From: Ktedonobacterales bacterium
GTDB lineage: Bacteria; Chloroflexota; Ktedonobacteria; Ktedonobacterales; DATBGS01
Length of the DNA stretch: 62,788 nucleotides
Direction of reading: 5' to 3'
NCBI GenBank assembly: GCA_036557285.1
Contig: DATBHW010000056.1
Span: 1 to 62,788, forward strand
The notes beneath the pieces were generated by a model. That model was not told where the DNA came from, searched no databases, and was given only the letters and a program-made list of their open reading frames with translations. Within the stretch, counting starts at the first letter, position 1. Every line of letters begins with the position of its first letter. Position numbers and translations under genes: made by a program. Positions 15,715-23,538 of this stretch are shown here, one piece after another.

Positions 15715-15889
15715 GGTTCCACCAATTATCGGGGGTCACTGGTAGCGCCGCCTTCCAGGCGGCCAACGCTGCGCCCTGGCGAGCGTTCGCCCTGGGGGCC
15801 AGCGGACCAGCAGGCCAACGCTGGCCGCCAAGATGGCGGCGCTACCAGTAACACGCCTCGCTTGCCAACACCTCAGATTTGGTAGAACC
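15715..15889. repeat. MITE-like repeat, copy 1
   Basis: A 175-bp non-coding element with short imperfect terminal inverted repeats (left GGTTCCACCAATTATC; right end, read inward, GGTTCTACCAAATC). Inside is a second inverted repeat, ACTGGTAGCGCCGCC at 15738-15752 against its complement at 15836-15850, then a 75-bp GC-rich core (15758-15832). A related copy lies at 23220-23538 with the core reversed. It sits between the MalT-like gene and the CpaE-like gene, about 35 bases before a possible -10 (TATGTT, 15924-15929). No ORF codes for a transposase. Confidence 0.75.
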
Positions 15890-16045
15890 CCGCGCGGCAG
15901 CCCTCTTTCTATTTTTCCGGCTCTATGTTAGTATGGGAGCAGGAATGGTAGAGGTAAGGAGGGGGGAGCATGGAGCGAGACGCAGGAAATAGCGTATATA
16001 GCTGTGGCGTTGGGGCTTTCAGTATTGCAGGGAAGGGTTGAGGCG

Positions 16046-17365
16046 ATGGCAACAAGACCATGCGTACTTGTGTATACCAGGGAGCATAAGGAGATTGCGC
16101 CGGTTCTGTGGCGTGAGGGTCTGGATGTTGAAGTCGTGACTTCACAAGCAGAGCTTGAGAATGCGGCGGTGCGCAAGCGTTTCAAGCTGCTCCTGGTTGA
16201 TTCGCTGATCAGTCCACCGGCCTCGCAGATTCGGGTATTACTGGACCAGAGACAATCACCTGGGCCAACAGAGCAAGGGAATACTTCTGAGGCTCCATCA
16301 CCAGCGGCGGCAATTCCGGCGCTGATTATTATGCCGCCAGCAGACTCGTATTCTCTGGTGCAGGAGCAGATGCTGAAAGGGATTGTGGAGCTAGACGAAC
16401 TGCTGTTCCGGCCCTATCGTATGGACGAACTGGTCTTGCGCGTGAAGGCTCTGCTGATTCGCAGTGGGGTAGACCTGACCGATTTGACACGCCTGGCCCC
16501 GCTGAAGCCCGACCGACCACAGGGGCGGGTGATCGCGGTTTTTTCGGCCAAAGGCGGAGCCGGAAAAACGGTGCTGGCCTGTAATCTGGCGGTGGCTCTG
16601 AAACGGCAGATGGGGCCTGGCGAACTGCTGTATCTGGTGGATGGCAACCTTCAGTTTGGGGATGTGCGTGTGGTGATGGATGTGCGCTCGCCGCAGAACG
16701 TGTTTGAGACCGGCGCCTACGAAAAGGGTATGTTGGATGGCGATGTCGTCAAGCAGATAACGTATGTCCATCCTTCGGGAGTCTCTATCTTATTATCGCC
16801 TACGTATTCGGATACAGCCGAGCGGGTCACACCCAATTCGCTTCAGCAGCTTTTCACGATTATTCGCGGGCTGGCCTCGCTGGTGGTGGTGGATTTGCCT
16901 ACCTCCTATGAGGATAGGACGCTGACGATACTGGAACTGGCCGATGAGATTCTTCTGGTGGTCACGCCAGAGATGTCGGTGGTGGCGAACACGACCAGAT
17001 TTCTGGAGGTGGCCGCGCAGTTGGAACTGGATGAGAAGGTACACATTGTTATCAACCGTTCAACCAGCCCATCAGGGATGACGCCCGCGCAGGTCAGGCA
17101 GGTCTTCGGCCAGCGTGTGCTTGGGGAGATCGTGAGCGATGAGCGCATGGTGATGCGCGCCGTCAATACCGGCCATCCTTTTACGATCAGCCAACCCAGG
17201 AGCCAGGCCGCGCAAGATGTGGCCCAACTGGCTCAAGGTCTCTGGCAAAGGCACCAGATCGAGCAGACATCCGCCCATAAAGCCATCAAGCTGACCGGCA
17301 AGACGGCCACGAGGCCGCTGAAGGGTCGGCGATTTGGCTTATTCAAGCCCACCACCAATACCTGA
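16046..17365 (+). CDS. CpaE/MinD-like P-loop ATPase with N-terminal receiver-like domain
   Basis: A 439-residue protein. Residues 1-135 resemble a response-regulator fold (PCVLVYTREHKEIAPVLW, LLLVDSLI). Residues 160-400 are a MinD/ParA ATPase with deviant Walker A KGGAGKT (about 169-175), the switch-like LYLVDGNLQFGDV and LVVVDLPTSYEDRTLTILE. This architecture matches CpaE/TadZ, which places Tad pilus machines or other polar complexes. ATG 16046 has a GAGG four bases upstream; 16004 is open but lacks a site. No other tad genes are in this window, so the role is open. Confidence 0.8.
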   Translation: MATRPCVLVYTREHKEIAPVLWREGLDVEVVTSQAELENAAVRKRFKLLLVDSLISPPASQIRVLLDQRQSPGPTEQGNTSEAPSPAAAIPALIIMPPADSYSLVQEQMLKGIVELDELLFRPYRMDELVLRVKALLIRSGVDLTDLTRLAPLKPDRPQGRVIAVFSAKGGAGKTVLACNLAVALKRQMGPGELLYLVDGNLQFGDVRVVMDVRSPQNVFETGAYEKGMLDGDVVKQITYVHPSGVSILLSPTYSDTAERVTPNSLQQLFTIIRGLASLVVVDLPTSYEDRTLTILELADEILLVVTPEMSVVANTTRFLEVAAQLELDEKVHIVINRSTSPSGMTPAQVRQVFGQRVLGEIVSDERMVMRAVNTGHPFTISQPRSQAAQDVAQLAQGLWQRHQIEQTSAHKAIKLTGKTATRPLKGRRFGLFKPTTNT

Positions 17366-17392
17366 CCTCCCCATGCTTCCCGAATGGACGCC

Positions 17393-21750: not shown

Positions 21751-21797
21751 GGCGCTATTTTATCATGAGTTGGTCAATGCTTCCCAGCAGCCGGAGC

Positions 21798-23078
21798 TTA
21801 TGCCTCTTCAATTGTTGCCACGCCCATGTAGGGGCGCAGGACGGACGGGACGACGATGGAGCCGTCGGCCTGCTGGTAGTTTTCGAGGATGGCGGCGAGG
21901 GTGCGCCCGACGGCCAGGCCAGAGCCATTGAGGGTGTGGGCGTATTCGGCGTGCGCGTCGTTGGCCGGGCGATATTTGATGCTGGCGCGGCGCGCCTGAA
22001 ACGTTTCGCAGTTGCTGACCGAGGAGACTTCGACGAAACGCTGCTGGCCGGGCATCCAGACCTCCAGGTCATAGGTTTTGGCCGCGCTGAAGCCAAGGTC
22101 TCCCACGCAGACGAGCATGACGCGATAGGGCAGCACCAGACGCTGCAAAATATCCTCTACGTCGGCGACCAGCCCTTCCAGGGCTTCATAGGAGTGGTCC
22201 GGCTCGACGAGCTGCACCAGTTCGACTTTGTTGAATTGATGCACGCGTGTCAGGCCGCGCGTGTCGCGTCCGGCGGAGCCTGCCTCGCGCCGAAAGGCCA
22301 CGGTAGCAGCGGCATAGCGGATGGGCAGTGTCCCTGGCTCCAGGATTTCATCGCGGTGCAGATTGGTGACGGGTACTTCAGCCGTCGGGTTCAGGAAGAG
22401 GTCATCTTCTGTGCAGTGATAGGCGTCGTCCTCGAATTTGGGAAGCTGGCCTGTTCCTAACATGGCGGCGCGTTTCACCAGGAAAGGCGGGAATACTTCC
22501 AGGTAATCATGCTCGGTGGTGTGCACATCCAGCATGAAGTTGAGCAGGGCGCGTTCCAGCCTGGCGCCCAGTCCGCGCATGATATAAAAGCGTGTGCCAG
22601 CGATCTTGACGCCGCGCTCAAAATCAATGAGCTTGAGCCGCTCGCCAAGCTCCCAATGTGGCGCTGGTGGATGCAGAAAAGCGACGGGTTCTCCCCAGCG
22701 CCGTATCTCGCTGTTGTCGTTTTCGCTGCTGCCTTCGGGGACGCTGGAATGCGGAAGGTTGGGAAATTGCAGCAGCAGCATATGCAGGTCGCTTTCGAGG
22801 TTGCCGATCTCGATTTCGAGCTTCTTGATCTCGCTCTGAGCCGCCTGAAGGGGCGCGGAAAGCTGCTTGCGCACCGCAGGCGACGCCGCGCGCAAGGCGT
22901 CGCGCAGCCGCTCTTCCTCGCGCTTATGCTTCGCGCGCAAGGCATCGCAGCGAGTAATGAGGCCGGCGCGCTGCTCCGCAAAGGCCAGTACTTCCTCCAG
23001 AGGCGCGTTTGCGCCGCGCTTGCGCAAGGCGTCGCGCACCAGATCGGGATGCTGGCGAATAAAATCCAGATGCAGCAC
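21798..23078 (-). CDS. serS: serine--tRNA ligase
   Basis: A 426-residue class II synthetase that charges tRNA-Ser. The N-terminal coiled-coil arm (residues 1-105, rich in Arg/Glu/Leu) binds the long variable arm of tRNA-Ser. Motif 2 lies around [20 protein letters not shown], and motif 3 around [19 protein letters not shown] 23078 is chosen over the open frame to 23147: AGGAG lies nine bases before it and the protein then begins with [16 protein letters not shown], matching the family N-terminus and usual length. A tRNA-Ser(UGA) gene is at 43204. Confidence 0.92.
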
Positions 23079-23219
23079 GATGGGGTTCTCCTGCGGGCAT
23101 AAAAGCCAAAGAGCGCCGATAGGCACTTCTGCAGAGGAGTATAGCATAGCCTTCTCAGAGAGGATACACCACCCATCCTGGTAAGGAGCGAGGCTTTGGG
23201 CTGGGGCGTCCGCTTTCAG

Positions 23220-23538
23220 GGTTCCACTAATTATCGGGGGTCACTTGTAGCGCCGCCCCCCTTCGGGAAGGGCTTCGCCAGAGCCGCTTGACCGCGCTGG
23301 GCGCGGCCATGCTCGCTCGGCTGTGCCTCGCTCGCGCGTCTCTGCCGCTTGCCTCGGCTGTTGCCCCGTCCTCTCGCTCCCGTTGGTCGCTCGCGCGTCC
23401 CTTCTTGGCGGCCAGCGTTGGACTGCTGGTCCGCTGGCCTGGAGGGCGCACGCTCGCCAGGGCGCAGCGTTGGCCGCCAAGAAGGCGGCGCTACAAGTAA
23501 CACGCCTCGCTTGCCAACACCTCAGATTTGGGAGAACC
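23220..23538. repeat. MITE-like repeat, copy 2 (larger, core inverted)
   Basis: The outer 35 bases on each side match copy 1 at 15715 in the same orientation, including the terminal repeats. The internal stem reads ACTTGTAGCGCCGCC and its complement. The 75-bp core at 23404-23478 matches the reverse complement of copy 1's core at about 70 of 75 positions. About 145 bp of extra low-complexity GC-rich DNA lies left of the core. It lies between serS and the FHA cluster promoter. Confidence 0.75.

Follow-up and report, generated by a model that had tools for sequence, protein, structure and literature searches.

A repeat with oppositely oriented cores at two loci

The window, a 62,788-nt stretch of a Chloroflexota genome, contains two copies of a short repeat whose outer arms align in one direction. 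Promoter-like sites to the right and left of copy 1 face a ParA/MinD-like gene and a MalT/LuxR-like gene, respectively, and downstream of the promoter predicted beside copy 2 lies an FHA-domain gene at 23730. It is the first of three consecutive ORFs (23730–27229) with an FHA-like start and a proline/glycine-rich middle, and is the only one of the three for which Pfam confirms the FHA domain. The parts of the two copies are as follows, with F and R giving the orientation of the core relative to the arms.

15671–15699, reverse strand: promoter-like TGGTCT-N17-TATACT to the left of copy 1, at 15 nt, near the family offset (score 8/12)
15715–15889, forward strand: copy 1, a 175-bp MITE with its core in F orientation
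15715–15737, forward strand: copy 1 left arm, A type, with terminal repeat GGTTCCACCAAT
15742–15845, no strand assigned: copy 1 passenger, from its sequence a GTAG-tagged REP dimer (GTAG outside), a REPIN-like unit
15758–15832, forward strand: copy 1 core, read as spacer plus inner REP arms, F orientation
15850–15889, forward strand: copy 1 right arm, B type, with end ATTTGGTAGAACC
15906–15934, forward strand: weak promoter-like TTTCTA-N17-TAGTAT to the right of copy 1, at the family offset of 16 nt (score 7/12)
23212–23219 and 23540–23547, forward strand: left and right target duplication of copy 2, GCTTTCAG
23220–23538, forward strand: copy 2, a 319-bp MITE with its interior in R orientation
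23220–23242, forward strand: copy 2 left arm, A type
23247–23494, no strand assigned: copy 2 passenger, GTAG to CTAC, the entire unit inverted compared with F copies of equal length
23255–23403, reverse strand: extra module of long copies, reversed in copy 2 along with the core
23404–23478, reverse strand: copy 2 core, R orientation
23499–23538, forward strand: copy 2 right arm, B type
23555–23583, forward strand: predicted copy 2 promoter TTGACG-N17-TATAAT, exactly 16 nt outside the right end

A direct duplication was also looked for in the flanks of copy 1, and none was detectable.

The first-pass annotation described a MITE-like, non-autonomous element whose cores, bounded by inverted repeats, match in opposite orientation at about 70 of 75 positions between co-directional arms, and it proposed an invertible cassette. 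The inverted match is real: core 15758–15832 is identical to the reverse complement of 23404–23478 at 70/75 positions, compared with 24/75 in direct alignment, and each core matches its own reverse complement at 22/75, which rules out self-complementarity as the cause. The match extends over 15735–15836 and 23400–23501, and the reversed unit, bounded by near-identical inverted ends, is larger than the 75-bp core; in the 319-bp copies it comprises the whole stretch enclosed by the inner GTAGCGCCGCC and GGCGGCGCTAC ends, and positions 21–282 of copy 2, used as a query, match the opposite strand of an F copy (C29:61205–61523) at 92%.

A family of more than 100 MITEs

Both window copies are members of a family with more than 100 elements in the genome. 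Across the 5.1 Mb, the 20-nt right arm has 133 matches at ≤3 mismatches against one control match, and the left arm has 123 at ≤1 mismatch against none. From 1.96 Mb of sequence, retrieved for the most part around copies, we recovered 106 copies in which both ends are present; all DNA examined amounts to 2.28 Mb of the 5.1 Mb, mostly chosen for containing copies, and copy density is not readable from this sample. Family members have terminal inverted repeats (GGTTCYACCA.. and ..TGGTRGAACC), are mostly 120–400 bp long, and are transposed elements, since 79 of the 106 carry direct duplications of 7–9 bp, which are perfect 9-bp duplications in 46. The terminal inverted repeats, small size and target site duplications agree with the MITE-like designation given at first pass, and the family is gene-free and multicopy as judged by size (mostly 120–400 bp) and copy number (106 copies; 133 right-arm matches). 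Arms are paired as A-B, A-A and A-A′ around the same kind of passenger. One 68-bp copy (C5:80521–80588) consists of two arms only, with no passenger, and could be a precursor that is still empty or the result of a deletion.

The elements would be moved by a transposase, and we found no autonomous one for the family in the 2.28 Mb of the 5.1-Mb genome together with three transposase family searches. DDE_Tnp_1 loci and an IS256-type gene were both rejected as the parent, having no matching ends, and among terminal-repeat pairs of >500 bp with identical 9-bp duplications in the examined part, none looked real. Separately, about 20 repeat units with GTTAGAAGCTGGCTGAATCTCCGCTGGA at a spacing of 71–77 nt adjoin a truncated transposase at L254 (C21:14113 region), in what looks like a CRISPR array.

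The core belongs to a REPIN-like passenger

The interior ends of the elements consist of GTAG followed by a hairpin, CGCCGCC-N5-GGCGGC, and such REPs are present at both interior ends of every one of the 106 MITEs except the passenger-free copy. The same ends are abundant elsewhere, with 1,072 in 2.28 Mb and about 850 of these outside the 106 elements; some of the latter fall in incomplete or unextracted MITE copies, and most do not. Two-member REP clusters have GTAG on the outside in 55 of 89 cases outside the elements and in 52 of 58 inside them, and in both settings most spacings fall in the 40s or the 90s. Three genes for RAYT-like (REP-type tyrosine) transposases are present in the genome, all with REPs nearby; two of them (C12:72467 and C55:165651) have REPs on both sides, and these score 81–83 bits with NF047646, narrowly over the NCBIfam cut-off of 80. 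Further Y1 transposases are found in C72, C79 and C29.

The passenger is thus an inverted REP dimer with a spacer and a GTAG tag beside each hairpin, in a genome with REP-flanked RAYT-like genes. Because GTAG REPs abound outside the elements and transposase genes are REP-flanked, the core is best read as the spacer of a REPIN-type dimer lying inside a MITE, and the likely mobilizers of the dimer would be the REP-type tyrosine transposases of this genome. REP dimers also lie between other recurring flanks, such as ATCCTGTTGCATGCTTGCGGCTTCGAC and CACATCCGCATGAAGCGGAGCGTTGTAC (C47:91540–91930, C3:112787 and C22:66005), which suggests that additional repeat families act as hosts of this passenger. 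The flank CTCACACACCCTCCGCACGAGCAGGGGCGGGG is common to 36 REP-like sites (C3:24203, C17:30949 and others) and marks another abundant repeat family.

Core orientation varies across the family

The orientation check proposed at first pass, run across the 106 copies, gave 46 F, 39 R and 21 that are not callable, with both orientations well represented rather than a single one. Most cores between AATKATC...GATTTGG arms are F, and almost all of those between ACCTATC...TTTGCTAG arms are R; both groups have exceptions. Two dissimilar arms are present in 70 copies (39 F and 31 R), and a core tree of these requires at least 10 orientation changes, on few resolved forks. The R cores of copy 2 and of C82:38023 bear diagnostic bases of subfamily-1 F cores and hence did not come from arm subfamily 2, which we rejected as the source of the reversed core of copy 2. 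Together, the mixed orientations and the subfamily-1 bases in R cores indicate that the core–arm relation has been reversed more than once.

A true invertible cassette, in which the DNA enclosed by the inner inverted repeats turns over reversibly in place, either through a site-specific recombinase or through recombination or strand switching between the repeats, would account for the near-identical inverted ends, for the several orientation changes, and for the grouping of two R cores (copy 2 and C82:38023) within the F cores of their own arm subfamily. However, the REP-dimer unit occurs hundreds of times outside the arms, orientation largely tracks arm subfamily, and the closest relative of the copy 2 interior (C47:91616–91876) has flanks other than MITE arms. 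Interiors like that of copy 2 are also found without arms and, with about 850 REP ends outside the elements, the module is not confined to switch loci. We consider the cassette proposed at first pass unlikely. Since the nearest interior to that of copy 2 is armless, its reversed orientation is explicable by exchange between contexts, with no programmed switch; in situ inversion may have occurred in single copies, as copy 2 has both subfamily-1 arms and a subfamily-1 core.

We instead favor reassortment of two modules as the simplest account, through exchange at REP ends or through REP insertion or replacement. Either orientation is possible because near-identical REPs in inverted orientation bound the passenger directly next to the arms; copies exchanging sequence, or independent events of insertion or replacement, would have placed the core either way between the same arms on several occasions. 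We infer that reversal came about by such exchange or insertion rather than by a switch.

Insertion at a fixed distance from predicted promoters

The outward flanks of the elements have a further feature, which the first-pass annotation had not noticed. On both sides, TTGAC has a peak exactly 16 nt outside the element end, with 17 occurrences on the right and 16 on the left, a few more at 15 or 17, and about 0.1 expected per position. We scored promoters over 12 positions at fixed geometry and compared the family offset with six control offsets; 78 of 106 copies score ≥8/12 at the family offset against 1–5 at the control offsets, and 35 score ≥10 against none. The 16 nt correspond to the 9-bp duplication plus 7, and in standard promoter numbering the duplication would cover roughly −44 to −52, ending 7 bp before the −35 box. 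As in extended −10 promoters, G is the favored base two positions ahead of the −10.

TTGAC gives the sharpest signal, and a transposase that reads it simply as DNA sequence, irrespective of promoters, would produce such a peak. We give this reading a modest minority chance. A −10 box is present at 37 of 42 element-adjacent TTGAC sites compared with 11% of all 3,606 TTGAC sites, a background that includes coding DNA, such that intergenic location may explain part of the difference. In addition, 53 copies lack a clear −35, and in 26 of these a −10 (5/6 or better) is correctly placed, compared with 0–3 at controls.

The arms have few relatives elsewhere, and at ≤1 mismatch the left arm has matches in only 2 of 399 other Chloroflexota genomes. 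At ≤3 mismatches, these two genomes have 7 and 9 matches, against 0 and 1 for the control. A TTGACA-like hexamer (4/6 or better) lies at exactly offset 16 at 6 of about 14 ends in these two distant genomes, with an expectation of about 0.5 calculated by hand for equal base frequencies. In one of the two, G203, another GTAG palindrome (GTAGGGGCGCAC...) lies inside some copies, and in the other, G119, no GTAG palindrome was seen inside the copies examined. Because the offset recurs in distant genomes whose interiors differ, the target is a property of the arms, with the REP dimer as a passenger.

Promoter adjacency could also arise without targeting, if insertion were random and elements just upstream of promoters had the best survival or were retained because they affect regulation; an element placed at about −43 would spare the core promoter and hence be tolerated. 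Tolerance alone would nonetheless yield a range of distances, whereas the −35 keeps a single distance (16 nt, in rare cases 15 or 17) whichever side of the element it lies on, and does so in two distant genomes with different interiors. We regard this explanation as very unlikely.

We predict from these sequence patterns that the MITE arms probably target sigma-70-like promoters. The element would insert with its target duplication 7 bp upstream of a −35 hexamer, with the promoter on either side. As to what is recognized, we lean slightly toward a transposase that recognizes sigma-70 promoters, or the RNA polymerase bound there, and inserts at one fixed position upstream of the −35. The literature that we searched, which left out most subscription papers, contained no match for promoter-targeted bacterial insertion.

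Discussion

The observations are probably best explained by nested repeats, in which a promoter-adjacent MITE carries a REPIN-like passenger whose orientation is set by exchange or insertion. The outer repeat would be a gene-free MITE, mostly with 9-bp duplications, and the inner one a REPIN-like dimer of GTAG-tagged REPs with the core as its spacer. Several points count against this account: no autonomous transposase was found in the examined 2.28 Mb or in the family searches, copy 1 has no detectable duplication, the subfamily-1 arms and core of copy 2 would also fit in situ inversion, the core tree is poorly resolved, and the RAYT scores are barely over the cut-off.

Each layer has known counterparts. 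GTAG REPs and REPINs associated with RAYT transposases are GTAG-tagged palindromes, with GTAG-outside dimers that have a spacer and hundreds of copies (PMC3116915, PMC3733652); the passenger shares all of these properties, including REP-flanked transposase genes. Unlike REPINs, many of the units here are housed in a transposon that has terminal repeats and target duplications, singlets are common outside that transposon, and mobility is predicted. REP dimers inserted within palindromes have also been described, such as GTAG-15 in A. variabilis, with free palindromes rare or absent (PMC3733652). The present elements are similar in that a longer inverted repeat encloses the REP dimer and free palindromes are likewise rare or absent, but the enclosing palindrome here is a transposon, as its 9-bp duplications and promoter-relative target show. 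Among MITEs, MITEAba12 is similar in length (about 110–320 bp), terminal inverted repeats, 9-bp duplications and absence of a gene (PMC6382973). Its targets are AT-rich with no sequence trend and its parent, ISAba12, is known (PMC6382973), whereas the family described here keeps an exact distance to −35 boxes and lacks a known parent.

MITEs and REPINs are known separately, and REP dimers in palindromes have been described; here, the outer palindrome is itself a transposon, with 9-bp duplications and a strikingly exact position relative to predicted promoters that recurs in two distant genomes. An inverted core within a repeat can be a second mobile repeat and not a switch, which calls for caution in reading such structures.

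The yeast elements Ty1 and Ty3 integrate upstream of polymerase III genes, sparing the gene. The preferred position upstream of a promoter is a working resemblance only, as Ty1 and Ty3 are eukaryotic retroelements, whereas this is a bacterial DNA element beside sigma-70-type promoters. If promoter-guided insertion is true, it would be a bacterial counterpart of polymerase-guided integration in yeast, and promoter targeting would offer a naturally occurring means of directing bacterial transposition to safe sites. The element-adjacent sites also offer a ready set of mapped, albeit predicted, promoters in a poorly studied phylum.
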